57,068 bases of DNA from an uncultured bacterium. GTDB lineage: Bacteria; Nitrospirota; Thermodesulfovibrionia; Thermodesulfovibrionales; CALJEL01. Position numbers and translations under genes: made by a program. The notes beneath the pieces were generated by a model that saw only the letters and a list, made by a program, of their open reading frames with translations, searched no databases and was not told the origin of the DNA. The stretch lies in the NCBI GenBank assembly GCA_938074335.1, contig CALJEL010000008.1, positions 1 through 57,068 of the forward strand, given 5' to 3'. This document shows positions 24,819 through 41,717 of this stretch, piece by piece; the stretch's first letter is position 1; each line of letters begins with the position of its first letter.

Positions 24819-25134
24819 ACTGGCAGGCTGCCTCAAAGTAGAGCCACAGTGCGATAGTGCTACAGTGCGACAGCACACCTGACGGTGAAGTGAGTTAGTG
24901 AGTTAGTGAGTTAGTGAATTAGTGAATTAGTGAATTAGAAAATACTAACTCACTTGCATACTAACTCACTACTTTAGCTCTGTCGCTCTATTAAGGTGTC
25001 GCAGGCGGGGTCCCCAGAAAATCGTTAGATTTTTTTGGTGTTAGTATTGCCTTTACAGCACGGACTGAAGGTCTTCACCCCGTGCTGTAGCCTGCCAGTT
25101 TTATTGAAAGGATTATTATAAATTGCTATCGGCA
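24819..25134 (+). repeat. Mosaic palindromic intergenic repeat, copy R2
   Basis: Left end ACTGGCAGGCTGCCTCAAAG and right end CTGCCAGTTTTATTG...TTGCTATCGGCA match the family. The interior holds six near-perfect 8-bp units GTGAGTTA/GTGAATTA (24890-24937), the conserved GGTGTCGCAGGCGGGG block, a decayed CCCCAGAAAATC hairpin and an inverted repeat around GCACGG...CCGTGC. It fills much of the ~580-bp rpsU-clpC intergenic gap; the clpC promoter lies downstream of it. The 79-aa ORF here is an artefact. Confidence 0.85.
24890..24937. repeat. Six-copy 8-bp tandem array inside R2
   Basis: Three GTGAGTTA units followed by three GTGAATTA units, in perfect register. Similar octamers recur, in either orientation, in R6 (~32.97 kb) and R7 (~41.18 kb). 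Variable-number behaviour is likely. Confidence 0.9.
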
Positions 25135-28551: not shown

Positions 28552-29079
28552 TTGGGTAAGGTCAGACCGCCGGAAAAGGCAGTTCTATTTATGGCGATAC
28601 TTATTAAAGAGCAGGAACTCTTTGAGGAGATGAATCCCCTTTTACAGAAAGAATTTGGAGAGATACTCTTTAAAACCCCTCTTCAGGACTGGAACTGGAC
28701 AGATTATTATAAAGACGAGATGGGAGAGGGAATTAAAAGGGCCTTTATTTTTTTTAAACATGTTATAGACTCTTCAGAACTTTCTGAAATAAAATTAAAG
28801 ACAAATAAGTTAGAGGAAAGATTTTCTGTAAATAATAAGAGAAGGGTAAATCTTGATCCAGGCTATATCACTCCCTCAAAGGTTGTACTTGCATCAACAA
28901 AAAACTACTGCCACAGGATATACATTGGCAAGGGTATATATGCAGAAATAACCCTTTACTATAAGGATAACTCCTTTAAGCCCCACATTTTTACCTACAG
29001 GGATTATGCTTCTCCTGAGACTATCTCCACCTTTAATACAGTACGAGAGATAATAAAGGACCTTTTTAAGGCACCATGA
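28552..29079 (+). CDS. DUF4416 family protein
   Basis: About 175 aa, a small soluble protein of the DUF4416 family (unknown function). The normal family start is represented by GKVRPPEKAVLFMAILIKEQELFEE, so I take the TTG at 28552 rather than the TTG at 28531 in the track (inside the hairpin) or the ATG at 28591 (which would remove conserved residues). The family motif GYITPSKVVLASTKNYCHRIYI is intact. The Shine-Dalgarno is weak. The next gene overlaps its last 4 nt, so it is probably co-transcribed with the HD-GYP regulator. Confidence 0.78.
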   Translation: MGKVRPPEKAVLFMAILIKEQELFEEMNPLLQKEFGEILFKTPLQDWNWTDYYKDEMGEGIKRAFIFFKHVIDSSELSEIKLKTNKLEERFSVNNKRRVNLDPGYITPSKVVLASTKNYCHRIYIGKGIYAEITLYYKDNSFKPHIFTYRDYASPETISTFNTVREIIKDLFKAP

Positions 29080-30485
29080 AGAGGATACTTGTCGTTGATG
29101 ATGACCCTTTGATAAGACAGCTCTGCAGGGACATCCTCAAAGGTCTCGGATTGGAGATCGCTGATACCGGGAATCCCCTCGAGGCTATTAATCTGTGGAG
29201 CTCCTCTCCCTTTGACCTTATGATAACAGATATAAAGATGCCTGTGATGAGCGGTCTGGAACTGATGGCAAAGATAAAAGAAAAGACACCTGATGCAGCC
29301 TTTGTTGTGATTACCGGTCATGGAGACTACAGCCTTGCAGTTGAGGCAATAAAACTTGGTGTCTATGATTTCATAAACAAACCCTTCAGGAGAGAAGACC
29401 TTGAGATGACCGTAAGAGATGTGATGTATAAACTGGAACTTCTTAACGAGATTAATAGATTGAAGATGTTTACAAGGCTTCACATGGCAAGTAATGAGAT
29501 AATGCACACCTTTGATATAAATACAGCAGTGCGGTTTGGTCTTGAAAACGCACTAAAGGAGACAAGGGCCTCGGAAGGGATTGTCTATCTTTACGATGGT
29601 GATTCAGGAAAATTTAATAAATTATATTCCATCCCTGAAGATCTGGAACTTCCTGATACGCTCTTAAAAAAGGCTATCGAGTCAGATGTCCCGATTATTG
29701 AGGATGGGAGTGTTACTGCCGCTATAGGCTCACTGAAAAGGACACTTGGTGTCCTTGGTGTCAGATATATTAATGAAAGATCTGGCTCTGCTGATCCTGA
29801 GGTTGTGGCTGTTATATCAAGAATACTTGGTATGACGATTGATAACATATTGCTTTTTAAAGACCTGAAAAGAAAGGTCCAGGAGGTAGAAGACCTTTTG
29901 CTGAACATAATAAAAGTCCTGAGCAACGCCCTGGATGCAAAATCTCCCTGGACAAAGGGACATTCAGAAAGGGTATGCAGTTATAGCCTTATGATCGCAG
30001 AGGAGATGGGTCTTGACAGAGAGGCAAAGAGGATTCTTGAGATGGCTGCACTCCTTCACGATATTGGTAAGATTGGCATGTATGATTATATCCTCAATAA
30101 GCCTGATAAATTATTGCCCCAGGAATTTGAGATTGTAAAATTGCATCCCCTAAAAGGAGCTGAAATCCTAAGACCCATAAGTCACCTTCAGGAGGTAATA
30201 AAAGTAATATCCCATCATCATGAACACTATGATGGAAGCGGTTATCCTGATGGCCTCAGGGGAGAAAGCATACCACTTCTTTCAAGGATACTTCAGGTGG
30301 CTGATGCCTTTGATGCCATGACCTCTGAAAGACCCTATAGAAAGATCCCTGGTATTAATAGGGCTATAGAAGAACTAAAATCCTGTTCAGGAAGACAATT
30401 TGATCCCTCTACAGTAGAGGCCTTTATCAGGGCTCTAAACAGGAAAAGAAATTATATGGATATGCGGACCTTTCAGGCAGTATAA
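29076..30485 (+). CDS. Response regulator with GAF-like and HD-GYP domains
   Basis: 469 aa. Receiver domain (1-120, phospho-acceptor Asp in LMITDIKMPVMSG, Lys in FINKPFRR), an intermediate GAF-like region (~135-275) and an HD-GYP phosphodiesterase domain (~285-455) with LLHDIGKIGM, HPLKGAEIL and HHEHYDGSGYPDGLRGE. The HD and GYP motifs are intact, so c-di-GMP hydrolysis is expected when phosphorylated or ligand-bound. No partner histidine kinase is adjacent. Start overlaps the DUF4416 stop. Confidence 0.93.
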   Translation: MKRILVVDDDPLIRQLCRDILKGLGLEIADTGNPLEAINLWSSSPFDLMITDIKMPVMSGLELMAKIKEKTPDAAFVVITGHGDYSLAVEAIKLGVYDFINKPFRREDLEMTVRDVMYKLELLNEINRLKMFTRLHMASNEIMHTFDINTAVRFGLENALKETRASEGIVYLYDGDSGKFNKLYSIPEDLELPDTLLKKAIESDVPIIEDGSVTAAIGSLKRTLGVLGVRYINERSGSADPEVVAVISRILGMTIDNILLFKDLKRKVQEVEDLLLNIIKVLSNALDAKSPWTKGHSERVCSYSLMIAEEMGLDREAKRILEMAALLHDIGKIGMYDYILNKPDKLLPQEFEIVKLHPLKGAEILRPISHLQEVIKVISHHHEHYDGSGYPDGLRGESIPLLSRILQVADAFDAMTSERPYRKIPGINRAIEELKSCSGRQFDPSTVEAFIRALNRKRNYMDMRTFQAV

Positions 30486-32943: not shown

Positions 32944-33136
32944 TAGAAAACTGGCAGGCTGCCTCAGTGAGTTAGTGAATACTAATTCACTAATTCACTA
33001 CTTTAGCTCACTTGCATACAACTCACTACTTTAGTGTAAAATTTTTTCACCTACGAGGTGACGGTCGCTCTATCGCATGGTCGCACTGGTGTGAGGCATA
33101 CCGCACTATTTAAAATATATTTCTATAGGAAGATTA
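32944..33136 (+). repeat. Mosaic intergenic repeat, copy R6 (right end diverged)
   Basis: Left motif TAGAAAACTGGCAGGCTGCC matches the family. The interior is made of GTGAGTTA/CACTAATT octamer-like repeats in opposite orientations, then a CACCTACGAGGTG palindrome and CGCTCTATCGCATGG. The right end only weakly resembles the family end (GAGGCATACCGC...AGATTA). It fills the obgE/HEAT-gene divergent gap. Confidence 0.65.
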
Positions 33137-33192: not shown

Positions 33193-34428
33193 ATGATACA
33201 GAAAGTCATTATACTAATCGTCAGTCTGATAGTATTTTTAATCCTTCTATTTTTTTTGATAGCTGTCTTTAGAAGGATAAGAGGTGCCAGAAGATACAGG
33301 GAGCTGGATAGAATAAGGGCCTATTATCTCCCCATCCTTCAAGAGAGTTTTAAAAAAGGAGACATCCTCTCAATAATAAATGACCTCATTTCAGAGCCTG
33401 GATCTATAAAATTTAAAGCTATAGAAGAACTTCTTTTTAAACTTAAAGAGAGGTTTCCTGAGCCTGCTAAAGAACTCCTCATAAGGCTTGGTTATGTTAG
33501 TTTCTATGAAAATATGCTTTCTGATAAAAACAGGATCAATAAAGCCACTGCCATTGATAGACTTGGCATAATTGGTCTTGAAACCTCTGCTGACAGACTC
33601 AGCCAGATGCTGAGGTCAGATGACAGGGAGATTATCTCTGTAACTGTAAGGGCTCTTTCCAATATAGGTACACTTGAAGCCCTTGCCTTAATCCTTGATC
33701 ACCTCCCTGGACTTTTTGAGAGATGGTTGATAACGAGGAAGGCTGTTGAGACCGCCCTTTTAAAATTTGGGGACAAGGGCACACCCCTCCTTATACAATA
33801 TGGTAAAACCATATCAAATCCAAAGATAATAGCCATAATACTCGATACACTGAGTCATTTAAATAACAATCAGGCTATAGGGCTTGCCATGGACAATATC
33901 AATCATCCTGATCCTGAGGTAAGGACAAAATCACTTAAGATCATAGAGAGGTTTTCAGACCTGTTAAATGGAAAGGATCTGGAAAAGATTCTATCACTTT
34001 CAAAGGATCCTGCCTGGTTTGTTAGACTTCATGTGGCAAAAATACTTGGAAAGGTCAACAGTAAAAAGGATGTTATAGATTACCTGGGGAAACTCATTAT
34101 GGATGAAAACTGGCAGGTAAGGAATGCAGCAGCATCTGCACTCTCAAAAAAGACTGAAGCCGGTCTTGATTTAATATTGAAGATATTAAAAGGAAAGGAC
34201 CACTATGCAATTGAGAGTTTATGCGAGGAGATTGAAAAGACTGAACTCTGTCGTGTTCTTATATATAATCTTTTAAGCCCTGATGGAGAAGTTTATAAAA
34301 AGTCGAGGGAGATCCTGAAGATCATGAATAATCTCGGGTTTTCAACACCTATTATGGAATATTTACAGACAGGAGATGAAGCTATAGCAATGGAGTTAAA
34401 ACTCCTTCTTTCAGAGAAGGCAGCATGA
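33193..34428 (+). CDS. Membrane-anchored HEAT-repeat protein
   Basis: 411 aa. One N-terminal TM helix (VIILIVSLIVFLILLFFLIAVF) and then a cytoplasmic alpha-solenoid of HEAT-like repeats, for example LVRLHVAKILGKVNSKKDVID-type helices and NWQVRNAAASALSKK. Such repeats usually scaffold protein-protein contacts. Its stop overlaps the start of the GT2 synthase by 4 nt, so it is the first gene of the polysaccharide cluster and probably a synthase partner or regulator. No enzyme motif is seen. Exact partner unknown. Confidence 0.85.
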   Translation: MIQKVIILIVSLIVFLILLFFLIAVFRRIRGARRYRELDRIRAYYLPILQESFKKGDILSIINDLISEPGSIKFKAIEELLFKLKERFPEPAKELLIRLGYVSFYENMLSDKNRINKATAIDRLGIIGLETSADRLSQMLRSDDREIISVTVRALSNIGTLEALALILDHLPGLFERWLITRKAVETALLKFGDKGTPLLIQYGKTISNPKIIAIILDTLSHLNNNQAIGLAMDNINHPDPEVRTKSLKIIERFSDLLNGKDLEKILSLSKDPAWFVRLHVAKILGKVNSKKDVIDYLGKLIMDENWQVRNAAASALSKKTEAGLDLILKILKGKDHYAIESLCEEIEKTELCRVLIYNLLSPDGEVYKKSREILKIMNNLGFSTPIMEYLQTGDEAIAMELKLLLSEKAA

Positions 34429-35822
34429 AGGTAACAACAGCACTTATCCTCGGATTTAATTACTTTGTCGGGATATATTACACCTTTTTTAATATCATAT
34501 ACTCACTCCTTCTCTGCATATCCCTTATAGTAATTATTAAATATACCAAGAGATTGAAATATGCACCGGTAAAGGAGATAAATTACTCGCCAGAGACACC
34601 ACCTGTATCCATATTGATTGCTGCCCGTAATGAAAGGGATGTTATATTAAGAACACTTGAATCTGTATTCTCAATAAATTATCCATTCTACGATGTGATT
34701 GTTATAAATGATGGTTCTGATGATGGCACCCTTGAGCTACTGATTGATAAATTCAAATTAAAAAAAATAGACATGGTTTACAGGAATATCCTTAAAACCG
34801 CTCCTGTAAAGGCCTTTTACTATAATCGTGAATTACCGAATCTCCTTGTTGTAGATAAGGTAAGAAGTGGTAAGGCAGATTCCCTTAACTGCGGGATAAA
34901 TATGAGCAAGGCACCCTATATATGCACCATTGATGCTGACTCAATTGTAGAGCCTGATGCACTCATCAGATTGATGATCCCTGTTATTGAAAGCCCTGTA
35001 CCTGTTGTTGCCTGCGGAGGTGTGGTAAGGGTTCTGAACGGCTCAAGGATAGAAAAAGGCATTGTAAAGGATATAGGTCTTCCGAGAGAAAGACTTCCCG
35101 TATTCCAGATCGTGGAGTACCTGAGGGCATTTCTTTTTGGAAGGGTTGGATGGGATGCCCTGCGTTCCATCCTTATTCTCTCCGGCACATTCTCTCTTTT
35201 TAACAAAAATGCCATTATCTCTGCAGGTGGATTTCACACAAGACATCTTGCAGAAGATATGGAAATTATAGTGAGGCTCCATGAGTATTATAGAAAAAAT
35301 AAAAAACCTTACAGTATTAAATTCATCTCCGATCCCATATGCTGGACAGAGGTACCATCCACACTCAGGGCACTGGCAAGGCAAAGAAGGAGATGGCACA
35401 TGGGCCTTATGCAGAGTATAATAGAATACAGAAAGATGATATTCAATCCATCCTATGGAAGAATCGGGCTTTTAATCTTCCCCTATTATCTATTCTTTGA
35501 GATGCTGGGTCCTCTGGTGGAATTCCTTGGTTACTTAATAGTACCAACCTCCTATTTTCTGGGTCTTTTAAACCTGAATTTTTTCTTACTCTTTCTCCTG
35601 CTTGCCATAATTTATGGGATATTCCTCTCCACAACAGGTATTTTCCTGGAGGAGCTTACCTACAGGAGATACCCTGGATGGGATCATCTTTCAAGGCTTC
35701 TTGTCTATGGGATTCTTGAAAATTTTGGCTACAGGCAGATAAACTCCTTTTTCAGATTCCAGGCAACATTATATTATCTCTGTGGTAAAAGAAAATGGGA
35801 ACATGTTAGGAAAAATGTCTAA
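34425..35822 (+). CDS. Processive family-2 glycosyltransferase (polysaccharide synthase)
   Basis: 465 aa. N-terminal TM region, GT2 domain (VSILIAARNERDVI at ~65; DxD in ICTIDADSIV; AEDMEIIVRL catalytic acid region; QRRRW as the QxxRW product-binding motif near 320), and C-terminal TM helices (~345-430). The combination of DxD, ED and QxxRW with TM segments marks a processive beta-glycan synthase of the PgaC/HasA/NodC type. The polymer is unknown; the adjacent deacetylase suggests a GlcNAc-containing chain. Overlaps the HEAT gene and the next gene. Confidence 0.93.
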   Translation: MKVTTALILGFNYFVGIYYTFFNIIYSLLLCISLIVIIKYTKRLKYAPVKEINYSPETPPVSILIAARNERDVILRTLESVFSINYPFYDVIVINDGSDDGTLELLIDKFKLKKIDMVYRNILKTAPVKAFYYNRELPNLLVVDKVRSGKADSLNCGINMSKAPYICTIDADSIVEPDALIRLMIPVIESPVPVVACGGVVRVLNGSRIEKGIVKDIGLPRERLPVFQIVEYLRAFLFGRVGWDALRSILILSGTFSLFNKNAIISAGGFHTRHLAEDMEIIVRLHEYYRKNKKPYSIKFISDPICWTEVPSTLRALARQRRRWHMGLMQSIIEYRKMIFNPSYGRIGLLIFPYYLFFEMLGPLVEFLGYLIVPTSYFLGLLNLNFFLLFLLLAIIYGIFLSTTGIFLEELTYRRYPGWDHLSRLLVYGILENFGYRQINSFFRFQATLYYLCGKRKWEHVRKNV

Positions 35823-38262
35823 TATAAGATGTTCAATCAAAACCATTTCAGGTAATAAATTTATGAACTATGAGGAACTCGGTTTTCTGGCAATAAATAA
35901 AGGAGATTATCTGGAAGCAATTAATATCTTCAAGAGAGGATTAGAAAAAAAGAAGGATGTCAGACTTTTTTTGGGACTTGGCATTGCTAATTATAAACTT
36001 GAGGATTATAAGACAGCTCGATGGGCCTTATATAAGGCCTTAGAACTAGAACCCAAAAATAAAGAGGCACTGAAGCTTTTATCGGATATTGAATCTCAAA
36101 AAAAACAAACTTGCATTGTACATAAAAAATCTATATTTAGAGTAAATAACAATTATCTTGAAATTCTGGATAGAGAATGGAAAAAGATTTTCTTCAAAGG
36201 TATAAACATCGGGCTTGGGTTACCAGGATACTTCCCAGGCGAATACCCCATAAAAAGGGGTACTTATCTTAAGTGGTTTAAACAAATATGCGACCTGGGA
36301 GCTAATTCTATTAGAATTTATACCATACATCCGCCTTCTTTTTATGAGGCCTTATATCAATTTAATAACGAATCAGAGAAAAAATTATATCTCTTTCAAG
36401 GTATATGGGTAGAGTTACCACAAGGTAATGATTTTTATAATGCACAATATATTGCTGATATTAAAGAAAGTATCAAAAATGCTGTAGAGGTAGTTTTTGG
36501 TAATGCCAACCTTCCTGAAAGGCCGGGATATCCTGAGGGTAAATATGAATTTGATGTATCTTTATACACTGTTGCCTTTATTTTCGGAAGGGAATGGGAA
36601 CCCTGTACTGTAAAAGTGTTTAATGAAACACTTGGAAGAAAATTGAGAGATTATATGGGCAACTTTCTGAGTATTAAAGCTGCAACTCCATTTGAAATAT
36701 GGATAACAGAAATGTGTGATTTTCTCCAAGGATATGAATATGAAAAATATGGGGTATCTCATCCCGTTTCTGTAACCAACTGGCCAACGCTTGATCCGCT
36801 TATTCATCCTTCAGAATCGAACCATGAAGATGAACTCCTACTACAGGGTATAGAAATAAGAAAAGATATATGTAACGAAAACGAAGATATGGAATCCCTG
36901 GACCTTAAACGTATCGAGTCTCATAAAGGAAACGGTTTTTTTATTACATATCATGTCTATCCCTATTACCCTGACTTCATGAATAATGATTATCTCGACA
37001 CACAAAATCCTTATCTTGCTTATCTCAAGACATTAAAGGATCACTATGGTAATATGCCAGTTCTGATTGGCGAGTTTGGTGTGCCAAGCAGTCGTGAAGT
37101 GGCACACTGGCATAGAGATGGATGGCACCATGGTGGTCATAATGAAACAAGACAGGGTGAAATTAACGGACTGCTCATGAAAGCTATATATGAATCAGGT
37201 ATGGCGGGAGGAATTCTTTTTAGCTGGTTTGATGAATGGTATAAGAGAAATTGGTTATTTTTGCCCTATGAGATTCCTGCTGAAAGAAACTGCTTATGGT
37301 TTAACATCCAAGATGCTGAGCAAAATTATGGATTGTTGGCTACCTATCCTAATTATCCAAAGAGAAAAGTAAATTTAGCCGGCTCCAAAGAAGACTGGAA
37401 CGAAGCTCATACCCTTTATGAAAGTAAAGGCCCTTTATTGTTTAGATTTAGCGATGGCTTTGATGAAGCAAGAATGTTAACAAGGTTGCTAGTTCAGCAT
37501 GATGAGGGATTTATTTATTTATTAATTGAAACAAAGGGGAAAATAGACTTTACGCAAGCCAATTATATAGTAGGTCTGGATACTTATTCTTCTGAGTCAG
37601 GAGAATTTTTATTTCCGTTAAAGACTAACCTGTTAAGTCCTATCGGTCTAAAGTTTATAATTCACCTTGCAGGTAAAGAGAAAAGCAGGATTCTAATATG
37701 TCATTCCTATGATAGATACTTAAATATGGAGAGTGGTAAAATCAAGCCTGAGATCTCTGACCAGGGGGCGTGGATAATGATGCAAAACAAAACAAATATG
37801 CGTAGGATAAGTAAAAATGGTAAAAGATTTTATCCATCGCATGTCTTCTCCATGAGCAATCTCAAATTTGGGACCCTTCATAGAAACAGTCCATTTTACA
37901 ACTCACTTGCTGATTTTTTTTACAAAGATAATATAATAGAACTCCGTATCCCGTGGAGTTTAATCAACTTCACAGACCCAAGCTCCAAAATGGTCTTATG
38001 GATGGATCAAAATACCAAAACAAAAAAAACGGAAGGTATAAAGATAATAGTCATCTCCTTCAAACCTGAAAAAGATCATCTATTTGCAAAGGATACAGGC
38101 GCGAAAGATAATATCACGCATTCTCTACCAGAGCCCCTCACAGCAGAAAATGTTAAGACCTATTCTTGGGAAGACTGGGATACTCCAATTTATCATACAT
38201 ATCTTAAAGAGAGTTATCATAAATTTAAAGAATACTTATCCAGGATTCCAGAGGTACTTTGA
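35815..38262 (+). CDS. TPR / GH-A-like TIM-barrel protein with C-terminal beta-sandwich
   Basis: About 815 aa. Start taken at ATG 35815 (overlapping the GT2 stop, with AGGA upstream); ATG 35863 (MNYEELGFLAINKGDYLEAI) is equally possible. Residues ~20-90 contain TPR-like repeats. Residues ~120-520 look like a clan GH-A (beta/alpha)8 hydrolase: GANSIRIYTIHPPSFYEAL, GREWEP as possible acid/base, YHVYPYYP, and VLIGEFGVPSS as possible nucleophile. Residues ~540-815 resemble a CBM9-type beta-sandwich (GFIYLLIETKG, LRIPWSLINF). No signal peptide is visible, odd for a glycosidase. It may trim, transfer or bind the nascent polymer. Confidence 0.75.
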   Translation: MSNIRCSIKTISGNKFMNYEELGFLAINKGDYLEAINIFKRGLEKKKDVRLFLGLGIANYKLEDYKTARWALYKALELEPKNKEALKLLSDIESQKKQTCIVHKKSIFRVNNNYLEILDREWKKIFFKGINIGLGLPGYFPGEYPIKRGTYLKWFKQICDLGANSIRIYTIHPPSFYEALYQFNNESEKKLYLFQGIWVELPQGNDFYNAQYIADIKESIKNAVEVVFGNANLPERPGYPEGKYEFDVSLYTVAFIFGREWEPCTVKVFNETLGRKLRDYMGNFLSIKAATPFEIWITEMCDFLQGYEYEKYGVSHPVSVTNWPTLDPLIHPSESNHEDELLLQGIEIRKDICNENEDMESLDLKRIESHKGNGFFITYHVYPYYPDFMNNDYLDTQNPYLAYLKTLKDHYGNMPVLIGEFGVPSSREVAHWHRDGWHHGGHNETRQGEINGLLMKAIYESGMAGGILFSWFDEWYKRNWLFLPYEIPAERNCLWFNIQDAEQNYGLLATYPNYPKRKVNLAGSKEDWNEAHTLYESKGPLLFRFSDGFDEARMLTRLLVQHDEGFIYLLIETKGKIDFTQANYIVGLDTYSSESGEFLFPLKTNLLSPIGLKFIIHLAGKEKSRILICHSYDRYLNMESGKIKPEISDQGAWIMMQNKTNMRRISKNGKRFYPSHVFSMSNLKFGTLHRNSPFYNSLADFFYKDNIIELRIPWSLINFTDPSSKMVLWMDQNTKTKKTEGIKIIVISFKPEKDHLFAKDTGAKDNITHSLPEPLTAENVKTYSWEDWDTPIYHTYLKESYHKFKEYLSRIPEVL

Positions 38263-38264
38263 CT

Positions 38265-39035
38265 ATGCATATAACCAGAAGAGATTTTTTAAAACTAAGT
38301 GGTGCAATCATTACATTACCCCTGTTGCCAAAGACTCTACTTGCAAACACATCTGTGATACCGGTGCTAATATACCATGATATTTCTATTCACTTCAAGG
38401 ATGAATATACTATCTCACCTGCATTGTTCGCAGCCCAGATGGAGTGGCTTTACTCTAATGGCTATACCACATTAACCTTCAAAGAAATAGAAAATTTTAT
38501 AAAAAAAGGTAAGACTAAGGCCATAATAATCACGTTCGATGATGGATATGCTTCTTTTATGGATTATGCATTTCCCTTATTGAGAGAATATAACTTTAAA
38601 GCAACAATAAATATAATAGGTAAGTATGTAGGTTCCTTTATATGGATGGGTGGCAACAGGCCAATGCTTAGCTGGGATGAATATAGATATATTATTAATA
38701 GCGGGCTCATAGAGCTAGGCTGTCATACTTTTAATCTTCATATAAAAGGAGGGGTAACCACCTTTTCAGATAAGGAATTAAGAAATGACCTCACCTTTTT
38801 TCAGGAGACTATAGAAAAAGAAATAGGAAAAAATACGGAGATATTAGCCTGGCCTTATGGAATATATAACGAGAGGAGTATAAAAATAGCTAAAGAAGCG
38901 GGATTTAAATATATACTAACTTCAAAGGAGGGTTACTTAGTGAAAGAAAGTAAGTTCCACGAAATACCAAGATTAAACATAAACAATAAAATTGATTTAA
39001 TCTCATTCCAGCAATATATAGATAATTACAATTAG
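38265..39035 (+). CDS. Polysaccharide deacetylase (NodB/CE4 family)
   Basis: About 256 aa. Starts at ATG 38265 (not the overlapping TTG in the track). N-terminal TRRDFLKLSGAIITLPLL resembles a twin-arginine signal. CE4 motifs: VLIYHDIS, ITFDDGYASFMDYAFPLL (the metal-binding DD), ELGCHTFNLH (HxxxH-like) and AWPYGIYNERSIKIAKEAGF. Expected to remove N-acetyl groups from an exported glycan, as PgaB does for PNAG. Begins 3 bp after the TPR-glycosidase stop. Confidence 0.9.
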   Translation: MHITRRDFLKLSGAIITLPLLPKTLLANTSVIPVLIYHDISIHFKDEYTISPALFAAQMEWLYSNGYTTLTFKEIENFIKKGKTKAIIITFDDGYASFMDYAFPLLREYNFKATINIIGKYVGSFIWMGGNRPMLSWDEYRYIINSGLIELGCHTFNLHIKGGVTTFSDKELRNDLTFFQETIEKEIGKNTEILAWPYGIYNERSIKIAKEAGFKYILTSKEGYLVKESKFHEIPRLNINNKIDLISFQQYIDNYN

Positions 39036-39142
39036 CAGTGTGCAACTATGCATACTTAATAAGGCTACAGGCTCTTCTTTGAATTTCCTGAACAGACATC
39101 TTTTGGGGATATTAATATAGAGTTTGAATAATGGAGGTACGA

Positions 39143-40675
39143 ATGAAAAAGATATTTATTATTTCAGTTATCCTTTTGTGGATTCTTCCAGCTTACGGTG
39201 TTGATATTGAGATTCTTAAAAAAACAGCAGAAGATACAGCTGAGCCAGCAAAAAGGGCAATGCTTTATAAAGAGATAGGAGATTACTATACTTCTATAGA
39301 CGATTTGAGAAGGGCCTCAGAATTTTATATAAAATCTCTTTCTGTTAAGAGAGAGGCCTTCAGCACAAAGGAGAGACTTCAGATGGCAACAAGGCTCTCC
39401 TGGGCAAGGAGATTCAAAGAATCATTGAAAGAGCTTGAATTGATCCTCGCAGAAGACAGTGAGGATTTAGAAGCAAGGATACATTATGCAAGGGTTCTGT
39501 CGTGGTCTGGGCGGCTTGATGATGCATTAAGAGAAATTGACACCGTGCTTAAAAAATCACCTGAAAACAGAGAGGCACTTCTTTCCAGGGCAAATACCCT
39601 CAGGTGGAAAGGCCATAATAAAGAGGCAATAGGGATATATAATGATCTCCTTAAAAAAGGAGATGACTTTGATACAAGGCTTGGCCTTGCCTATTCTCTT
39701 ATAGCGACAGGCGATATCAGTTCTGCAGAGGATAACATTAAGCTTCTTAAGCCATCTTATCCCTATCAGGAGAAAGAACTCGCGGAGCTTAAGGCCTACT
39801 TAAAAAGTGTTAAGCGCCCTCAGATTCATACAGACTATAGTTATTACAGAGATAGTGATGATAACATTGTAAACAGATATTCTGCCGGGATAAATATGAA
39901 TAATGGATTGTGGAGGTTTAATTTGAATTACAGATTAATCTCTGCAAAGGATAATATTTATGATAACAGGGCACATTCTATAACAGGAGGATTTTATAGA
40001 AGATTCGATCCAGGAGGAGCAGGTGCATCAATCGGAATAACCTCACTTGATAATGAAGACCCTTCAAACATATTTACAGGTAATATAAGGACAGACCTCA
40101 AGATTTTCAGAACATCATTCTCCATAAACCTTACAAGAGATGTAATGACCGACACTGCACTGCTTATAGAAAGAGGAATAAAATACACTGAGGCTGGCAT
40201 AAGCACCTCTGTGCCTGTGTCTGAGAGGACGTTTTTAGAAGGTTCTTATAGATTCAGGGACTATTCAGACAGCAACCATTCCCATGACCTTCAGGGAGGT
40301 TTGAGATTTACCTTACTTACAGGAAATCCATCAATAAGCACAGGTTACAGGCTCAGATATCTTGATTTTAAAAAACAGACTGCAAATGGCTATTTTGATC
40401 CTGATAATTTTTTCTCCCATCAGGTTTTTGTGTCTCTTTATTTTGAAAAGGAAAGATTATATCTTTTTATTGAACCCTATGGTGGCTATCAATCATTCAG
40501 GAGATATGGTAAAAAGACAGATGACTTTTTCACAGGCGGCTCGATGACTCTTGGTTACAGGATAAAAGATGGTCTCTCCATTGAATTAAATGCAGAAGGT
40601 GGTGATTATGCAGCAGGTGCTGCCACTGGATTCACGTACTGGATGGCTGGAGTGGCTATTAAAGGAGTTTTTTAA
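39143..40675 (+). CDS. TPR plus outer-membrane beta-barrel protein (YaiO/PgaA-like exporter)
   Basis: 510 aa. Starts at ATG 39143, with GGAGG immediately upstream, giving a signal peptide (KKIFIISVILLWILPAYG). Residues ~25-205 are TPR repeats (AMLYKEIGDYYTSIDDLRRASEFYIKSL...; ENREALLSRANTLRWKGHNKEAIGIYNDLL). From ~215 it becomes an amphipathic YaiO-like beta-barrel ending in a hydrophobic/aromatic VAIKGVF. The layout is like PgaA (TPR + porin) but smaller. Probable outer-membrane component for polymer export. Separated from the deacetylase by about 100 bp, otherwise co-directional. Confidence 0.85.
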   Translation: MKKIFIISVILLWILPAYGVDIEILKKTAEDTAEPAKRAMLYKEIGDYYTSIDDLRRASEFYIKSLSVKREAFSTKERLQMATRLSWARRFKESLKELELILAEDSEDLEARIHYARVLSWSGRLDDALREIDTVLKKSPENREALLSRANTLRWKGHNKEAIGIYNDLLKKGDDFDTRLGLAYSLIATGDISSAEDNIKLLKPSYPYQEKELAELKAYLKSVKRPQIHTDYSYYRDSDDNIVNRYSAGINMNNGLWRFNLNYRLISAKDNIYDNRAHSITGGFYRRFDPGGAGASIGITSLDNEDPSNIFTGNIRTDLKIFRTSFSINLTRDVMTDTALLIERGIKYTEAGISTSVPVSERTFLEGSYRFRDYSDSNHSHDLQGGLRFTLLTGNPSISTGYRLRYLDFKKQTANGYFDPDNFFSHQVFVSLYFEKERLYLFIEPYGGYQSFRRYGKKTDDFFTGGSMTLGYRIKDGLSIELNAEGGDYAAGAATGFTYWMAGVAIKGVF

Positions 40676-41019: not shown

Positions 41020-41200
41020 CTATTTTGCCATTAGAAAACTGACAGTCTGCCTCAAAGCCTTCTTAGACCAGCAGAGCAGCAGTGCAGTAGAGCAGTAGTT
41101 TTTATTAAGGAATTTTTTTCTTATTATTTAACTGCTGCGCTGTTGCTCTGCTGCTCTACTGCTCTGTAATTCACTAATTCACTAATCCCTAACTCACTAA
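41020..41200 (+). repeat. Mosaic intergenic repeat, copy R7 (right end missing)
   Basis: Left end CTATTTTGCCATTAGAAAAC is shared with R8. It then has a block of GCAG/TAGAG motifs and, after a TTTTTATTAAGGAATTT spacer, the complementary CTGCTG/CTCTAC block, forming a long hairpin-capable inverted region. The conserved right end of the family is absent and is replaced by TTCACTAA octamers. About 120 bp of its left half are near-identical to R8. Confidence 0.8.
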
Positions 41201-41300
41201 TGTATATGATATAATTATTCACAGGTTCCTTAAAAGATGAGAAGGCGGCTTAGAAATACAGTTTGAACAGTTAATAATTCACTAACTCACTAATTTAAAG

Positions 41301-41717
41301 GTGAGACTTGAAGCGATTCTCATTGGAAATGCTGGTGCAGCATTAGAGGGGACTTCTGTCATGACACAGGATATCGACTTTTTGTAAGGGATACAGAGCT
41401 TAATAGAAAAAAGAGCAGGGACTTTGCAGAGGTCCTCGGCCTCTCCCTTTATAAAAGGGATGAGGCAACAATGGTTCGACAAGCTCACCATGACATGGTT
41501 CGACAAGCTCACCATGACATGGTTCGGCAAGCTCACCATGACATATGAAAGTATAAGAGCACGGGCAAAGAGGATAAAGATAGGTGATCATTTTTGTCTC
41601 GTAGCAGATCTCGAAGATATTATTAAATCAAAAAAGGCTACAGGTAGAGAAAAGGACATTGCCGTAAATAAATTACTTGAAGATACCTTAAAGGTAAAAA
41701 GAAATTTGAAGAGATAA
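41301..41717 (+). pseudogene. Degraded nucleotidyltransferase-like gene
   Basis: From GTG 41301 one frame reads VRLEAILIGNAGAALEGTS and MTQDIDF, matching small nucleotidyltransferases of the DUF6036/MNT type (LIGNAGAAL...DIDFF). The next part, VRDTELNRKK...AEVLGLSLYKRDEA, is in another frame, so there is a frameshift near 41380. The 3' end, LVADLEDIIKSKKATGREKD, is the conserved C-terminal motif, in a third arrangement after three 24-bp repeats inserted into the gene. Reported as broken, not functional. The 97-aa track ORF covers only the tail. Confidence 0.75.
41471..41542. repeat. Three tandem copies of a 24-bp repeat
   Basis: Three consecutive 24-bp units with core TTCGACAAGCTCACCATGAC; the third differs by one base (GGCAAGC). 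All are in the same orientation and in frame (VRQAHHDM-type peptides). The core resembles short dispersed repeats seen widely in bacterial genomes. They interrupt the nucleotidyltransferase remnant. Confidence 0.92.

Follow-up and report, generated by a model that had tools for sequence, protein, structure and literature searches.

A five-gene operon lies at positions 33193 to 40675 of contig CALJEL010000008.1 (assembly GCA_938074335.1), a stretch of 57,068 nucleotides (the window) from an uncultured bacterium of the phylum Nitrospirota. The operon is real and conserved, and it is an undescribed variant of the synthase-dependent kind of exopolysaccharide system. In the reading preferred here, with a probability of roughly 60%, it would produce a synthase-dependent exopolysaccharide by means of an undescribed class of family 2 glycosyltransferase (GT2) paired with a HEAT-repeat protein (HEAT-GT2). 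A family 4 carbohydrate esterase (CE4) and a glycosidase carrying tetratricopeptide repeats (TPR-glycosidase) would amount to a split PgaB, exported together via the twin-arginine translocation (Tat) pathway. The observations behind this reading are the gene content, the conserved order, the motifs, the linkage of HEAT and GT2 genes, and a pattern in which glycosidases without a signal accompany a Tat-bearing CE4 and the others carry a signal of their own. Judged by its sequences, the system is related to that for poly-N-acetylglucosamine (PNAG; Pga), yet it is not a member of it. An earlier note on this DNA had proposed an exopolysaccharide system, an interpretation which is supported.

Gene order and its conservation

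All five open reading frames (5/5) were confirmed at their coordinates on the forward strand, co-directional as the earlier note had described them. The first four overlap or abut, and the fifth, which encodes a TPR-barrel protein, begins 95 bp past the CE4 gene. The domain calls for HEAT, GT2, TPR and CE4 were borne out by Pfam matches, and the DxD, ED and QxxRW motifs are conserved in relatives.

The recurrence that the earlier note had proposed to look for was found. The order HEAT, GT2, TPR-glycosidase, CE4 and barrel, all co-directional, is present in five other complete loci from two phyla, Nitrospirota and Thermodesulfobacteriota: L001 (from a metagenome-assembled genome labelled Thermodesulfobacteriota), L002 (Thermodesulfovibrio), L004 (Thermodesulfobacterium), L023 (the same genus as the window) and L025 (G080). 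Three more loci (L003, L005 and L024) show the order in part, being interrupted by contig ends. A chance adjacency of the five genes was rejected, since the order is kept in two phyla. Among 246 Nitrospirota genomes, the TPR-glycosidase was detected in 8 and this GT2 in 42, one copy each; the GT2 search left a gap, with no matches between E = 1e-138 and the limit of 1e-80. In both trees L004 is placed within the Thermodesulfovibrio set, together with Thermodesulfovibrio N1 (100/100), and its placement relative to L003 and L002 points to a transfer of the whole cassette between phyla.

The synthase and its HEAT partner

The second gene (34425-35822, forward strand) encodes a predicted processive polysaccharide synthase (Glyco_tranf_2_3, 1.1e-22). 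Its closest curated family is PgaC/IcaA (TIGR03937; 116 bits, 1.5e-33, under the 422-bit cut-off), and it shares 23% identity with PgaC of E. coli K-12 over 368 residues (9e-21). Residues D96, D170, D172, D278 and Q320-R321-R323-W324 are invariant in 12 relatives, and in these the motifs D-D-x-D, ED and QRRRW show little or no variation. A grouping with non-processive transferases had been raised as a possible objection; the QxxRW motif and the closeness to PgaC/IcaA speak against it, and no evidence for such a grouping of the window GT2 was found. In plasmid records the family shows 33-42% identity and at least 204 bits, whereas other GT2s among the matches listed reach at most 31% and 122 bits. 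In the tree, the family falls on one side of a branch and eight controls on the other (support 74/92), and it is separate from E. coli PgaC. It reaches Haloarcula, Paenibacillus, Bacteroides, Deinococcus and Mesorhizobium, and HEAT-GT2 loci are spread over haloarchaea, Bacillota, Deinococcota, Bacteroidota and Pseudomonadota, the breadth beyond Nitrospirota being drawn from plasmid records.

The first gene (33193-34428, forward strand; HEAT_2, 5.8e-20) encodes a protein with a single N-terminal transmembrane helix (residues 5-23 in a transmembrane scan), followed by basic residues and then by the HEAT repeats; owing to this arrangement the HEAT domain is probably cytoplasmic. A gene of this type was found within 6.1 kb of 36 of the 37 family GT2s, compared with none of seven control GT2s; the HEAT profile had been built with 9 of the 37 loci, and the independent count is 27/28. 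The HEAT gene directly adjoins the GT2 gene in most family loci, is rearranged in the Nitrospira-type ones and is absent in L070. Across phyla the HEAT protein almost always accompanies this GT2 family and is no local oddity; it is presumed to be a partner or regulator of the synthase. In 7 of 12 plasmid loci a stand-alone response-regulator gene lies in the same run, which makes it plausible that a receiver acts on the HEAT protein to regulate synthesis. Gram-negative HEAT-GT2 loci usually add a TPR outer-membrane barrel, and archaeal and Gram-positive ones are without it, as expected if the barrel serves the outer membrane. A literature search among open-licence papers returned no prior description of a HEAT-GT2 polysaccharide synthase, and an operon survey mentions neither HEAT nor YaiO (PMC7112194).

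Two side observations concern these loci. In the Nitrospira-type loci (L062, L063, L065, L069 and L071-L074) the HEAT, GT2 and barrel genes are clustered in mixed orientation with those for a 632-residue protein that weakly matches CE4 (L063:2414-4312) and for a 550-residue TIM-barrel-like protein without a Pfam match (L063:6216-7868), so that other families apparently fill the same set of roles. Membrane-anchored proteins with the motif HCYLGRHR, similar to that of dual-specificity phosphatases, sit within or beside three HEAT-GT2 loci (L060:6877-7407, L067:4581-5063 and L068:7845-8366).

The deacetylase and the Tat pattern

The CE4 polysaccharide deacetylase (38265-39035, forward strand; Polysacc_deac_1, 4.3e-25, above the Pfam cut-off) probably starts at ATG 38265, its open reading frame opening at TTG 38259. 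Its closest NCBIfam model is PgaB (TIGR03938; 146 bits, 8.5e-43, under the 322-bit cut-off), and identity with PgaB of E. coli K-12 is 26% over 253 residues (2e-24). The catalytic Asp and the metal-binding Asp/His/His (D92, D93, H154 and H159) are invariant in six proteins. It carries a twin-arginine signal, MHITRRDFLKLSG, of the S/T-R-R-x-F-L-K type, and every CE4 seen linked to a TPR-glycosidase has a twin-arginine signal. In eight genomes the twin-arginine (RR) signal was present on 6/6 linked CE4s and on 0/12 other CE4s, a split calculated by hand as 1 in 18,564 if the cases are independent. TatC was found in all ten genomes tested, and no second CE4 was matched in the genome of the window.

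The glycosidase shows a complementary pattern. Among CE4-bearing loci where its N-terminus is visible, it is signal-less in 8/8 (17-residue hydropathy at most 0.72), whereas all six proteins lacking an adjacent CE4 have a signal or anchor of their own (at least 2.11). The window protein has no N-terminal hydrophobic stretch, and the genome G126, whose glycosidase has its own signal, gave zero CE4 matches. The simplest reading of these sequence patterns is that Tat carries CE4 and glycosidase across the membrane folded and paired, which would make them a two-piece PgaB. Other Tat substrates are known to be exported as hitchhikers (PMC4273604), and PgaB is a protein of CE4 plus GH153 (PMC5933820).

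The pair also appears to move together. The L026 GT2 nests beside that of the window (98/94), but its glycosidase groups with the signal-bearing G017 protein (96/99) and its CE4 is gone; these differing affiliations suggest that glycosidase and CE4 are exchanged as one unit, L026 being a second event. The lowest G+C of the operon is that of the glycosidase/CE4 pair (0.36/0.33 in the window, 0.36/0.34 in L023).

The TPR-glycosidase

The third gene (35863-38262, forward strand) encodes TPR, recognised by Pfam, a putative clan GH-A glycosidase and a C-terminal domain. Its open reading frame opens at GTG 35782, but ATG 35863, later than listed, is probably the true start because MNYEELG of the window aligns with MNFEELG of L001, where this start is conserved. 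Beyond the TPR no Pfam match and no PDB sequence match were obtained, a PDB profile search with the glycosidase alignment gave nothing at E ≤ 10, and the protein is a family of its own. A PgaB-type glycosidase was rejected, there being no similarity to E. coli PgaB.

The AlphaFold2 model of the full protein was unusable (predicted local distance difference test, pLDDT, 43). The domain-only model had a mean pLDDT of 45 and was confident only for about residues 38-151 of the fragment, a part with the beta-alpha-beta-alpha layout of the first half of a barrel. With this partial model, Foldseek gave GH157 as best match (9.8e-06, TM-score 0.27), followed by GH2 enzymes; both belong to clan GH-A. 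Because the TM-scores and the model confidence are low, the match is a hint at clan GH-A, for the first half of the barrel. Support for the GH-A-like TIM barrel of the earlier note is limited to this first half. Candidate catalytic residues are Glu 244 (FGREWE), kept in 12/14, and Glu 404 (EFG), kept in 13/14; the copy in Planococcus and a second one in Paenibacillus look degenerate. Members of the family also adjoin HEAT-GT2 in these two genera and in Deinococcus.

Other proteins of similar appearance were noted. Small TIM-barrel-like proteins that by eye form a further family occur next to HEAT-GT2 genes in Paenibacillus, a Nitrospira-type genome and Planococcus (L007:299-1396, L063:6216-7868 and L076:3021-3947; motifs FWVWTYREAI, TTWLWDAAKI and YGIFSWSSEE), with no matches in the family libraries. 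A 375-residue protein downstream of the G126 operon (L026:2085-3212) resembles by eye the N-terminal part of L007:3785-6886, the second Paenibacillus glycosidase, to which that region is fused; this accessory part would be a fused domain in one phylum and a stand-alone protein in the other.

The outer-membrane barrel

The fifth gene (39131-40675, forward strand) encodes a protein with a Sec signal, periplasmic TPR (TPR_19, 4.8e-14) and a C-terminal region of about 290 residues, predicted to form an outer-membrane beta-barrel and ending in GVF, with Phe last. The length is about that of a PgaA/BcsC-type barrel. A BCSC_C match (0.008) covers residues 381-460, the PgaA match (TIGR03939; 37 bits, cut-off 367) covers the TPR part only, and with BcsC of E. 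coli K-12 only the TPR parts align. The YaiO-like barrel of the earlier note was not confirmed: neither YaiO model (TIGR04390, PF19413) matched the window protein and hhalign gave a probability of 13% over 38 columns, so the identity was rejected. YaiO-matching barrels are present in other HEAT-GT2 loci (L009 and L067), and since true YaiO barrels are used there, the position of the window barrel supports the exporter role. This role stays presumed, and nothing in the sequences indicates a non-exporter, the case that the earlier note had named as contrary to its proposal.

Polymer, proposed mechanism and alternatives

A GlcNAc (N-acetylglucosamine) polymer is favoured by three lines of sequence evidence, namely the PgaC-like GT2, the PgaB/IcaB-type CE4, and the locus of Halosolutus. 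There the order is receiver, HEAT, GT2, GlmU-like and GlmS; the nucleotidyltransferase directly after the GT2 has archaeal GlmU as its nearest family (259 bits, against a cut-off of 292), and together with GlmS it makes up a route to UDP-GlcNAc. In Legionella, HEAT-GT2 is adjoined by a nucleotide-sugar dehydrogenase and epimerases; with these other nucleotide-sugar enzymes, the class may be diverse in substrate.

In the proposed mechanism, the membrane GT2 would build a hexosamine polymer, most probably of GlcNAc supplied as UDP-GlcNAc, and thread it across the inner membrane. The HEAT protein of the inner membrane would lie against the cytoplasmic face of the GT2 and fill the position of PgaD, as an obligatory partner or regulator. 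In the periplasm the CE4 would take off some acetyl groups, the TPR-glycosidase would trim or guide the chain, and the TPR-barrel would conduct it through the outer membrane. CE4 and glycosidase would be a split, analogous PgaB, exported folded and together on the twin-arginine signal of the CE4. In this scheme we infer the activity, the polymer identity, the hitchhiker export, HEAT as regulator and the barrel as exporter. It is proposed more tentatively that HEAT-GT2 is a separate synthase class of bacteria and archaea, gated by HEAT and often beside a stand-alone phospho-receiver, to which a folded complex of deacetylase and glycosidase, brought to the periplasm by Tat hitchhiking, is added; this last half would be the Thermodesulfovibrio-type version, a split-PgaB arrangement not described before.

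The same exopolysaccharide system can be imagined with a cytoplasmic glycosidase, docked by its TPR, that acts at the synthase to remove or measure stray polymer or a lipid-linked precursor, the Tat signal of the CE4 being incidental. Such a role would suit a protein lacking a signal peptide in eight loci, with TPR at its extreme N-terminus and a gene directly 3' of that for the GT2. It appears unlikely given the relatives in Paenibacillus, Deinococcus, Planococcus, G126 and G017, whose own signal or anchor implies work outside the cytoplasm, and given that the Tat signal is limited to CE4s adjoining a glycosidase. The nature of the polymer offers another alternative, a glucan or other non-amino-sugar polymer from which the CE4 would take acetyl groups of some other kind. 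The best fold match, GH157, was solved with laminari-oligosaccharides and hints at a beta-1,3-glucan, and the Legionella enzymes suggest that substrates may vary in the class; but that match comes from a low-confidence model, the CE4 is of the PgaB/IcaB kind and Halosolutus has GlmU-like and GlmS, so this option is considered rather improbable.

A divergent pga operon is harder still to credit. The likeness to PgaABCD of E. coli and IcaADBC is evident in a processive GT2 closest to PgaC/IcaA, a CE4 closest to PgaB/IcaB, PgaA-like TPR joined to an outer-membrane barrel, and a glycosidase working with a deacetylase. Against it, three window proteins fall far under the curated cut-offs (TIGR03937, TIGR03938 and TIGR03939), on which ground a plain PNAG operon was rejected, and the GT2 stands apart from E. 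coli PgaC in the tree. The absence of PgaD was upheld: blastp of the five window proteins and the HEAT profile gave no match to it, and the HEAT protein stands in its stead. Deacetylase and glycosidase are separate genes, the former with a Tat signal and the latter without similarity to PgaB. The earlier note had seen no Pga counterpart for the HEAT and TPR-glycosidase proteins; this is true of similarity to PgaD and PgaB, but glycosidase and CE4 together probably stand in for the two halves of PgaB.

Several points weigh against the preferred reading of a HEAT-GT2 exopolysaccharide with a split, Tat-exported PgaB. All glycosidases without a signal fall in one clade (93/99), so the Tat pattern rests on one origin and one apparent exchange. 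The Tat-like signal of the earlier note stood as far as the RR motif of all linked CE4s and the TatC of their genomes go, but in the window CE4 it is just under the curated cut-offs (14.8 against 16.7 bits and 17.4 against 22.7 bits). In G017 the glycosidase and barrel pair lies on a different contig from HEAT-GT2, the glycosidase fold is only half modelled, and the window barrel is placed in no export family.

Comparison with other known systems

A Gram-positive form may be recognised in NELoc-2 of necrotic-enteritis Clostridium perfringens (CP4_0463-0468), for which the published table gives the order VTC, tubulin/FtsZ-like, CotH, hypothetical (685 residues), HEAT (377 residues) and GT2 (466 residues); the GT2 was read as a chitin synthase and no polysaccharide system was assigned (PMC2879425). 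Compared via that gene table alone, order and sizes resemble those of Planococcus L076 (VTC, DUF4956, CotH, glycosidase, HEAT, GT2); unlike the window operon, NELoc-2 is without barrel or CE4. Pel (PelA/PelB/PelF) likewise combines deacetylase, glycosidase and TPR-barrel for one synthase, a likeness of roles, but PelA is one polypeptide and PelF is a GT4-type enzyme. The cellulose synthase BcsA/B/Z/C has a membrane GT2 with QxxRW, an accessory glycosidase and a TPR-barrel; the window GT2 shares merely 24% identity with BcsA over 92 residues, and no BcsB or PilZ domain was found in the window system. The E. coli yaiO-yaiX-yaiP-yaiS locus places a GT2, an outer-membrane barrel and a putative deacetylase side by side, but lacks a HEAT gene, and neither CE4 with YaiS nor barrel with YaiO gave a match showing membership. 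PaoABC offers the parallel for export, with an RR signal on one partner and one or more partners without (PMC4273604); it is an aldehyde oxidoreductase, whereas the window pair would be a deacetylase-glycosidase.

Surroundings of the operon

Housekeeping genes flank the operon: upstream Obg and a kinase whose sequence suggests the name ProB-like, downstream SelB; a tRNA-Ser follows on the opposite strand. A response-regulator protein with an HD-GYP-like domain is encoded 2.7 kb upstream (29076-30485); no evidence of its membership in the system was found, and the ProB-like and Obg genes intervene on the other strand. Repeats of the AGTGAATT / TCACTAATTCACTAACTCACTAA type occupy several intergenic stretches (24889-24938, 32960-33020 and 41160-41300), one of them immediately upstream of the operon. 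Three tandem copies of ATGGTTCGACAAGCTCACCATGAC (41471-41544) lie within an apparently decayed nucleotidyltransferase-like open reading frame upstream of SelB. A promoter scan gave 30 hits against 27.5 expected from shuffling and, being no better than chance, was not used.

Significance

Cellulose, alginate, Pel and PNAG account for most of what is known of synthase-dependent exopolysaccharides. What deserves following up is the HEAT-GT2 core along with the deacetylase-glycosidase pair linked to Tat, the Tat pairing being a sharp test of the delivery of deacetylase and glycosidase as a single unit. If the reading is true, many loci annotated merely as 'glycosyltransferase' and 'HEAT repeat protein' would gain a common explanation, among them NELoc-2 of clostridia that cause disease in poultry and those of many Nitrospira-type genomes and of plasmids in rhizobia and haloarchaea.

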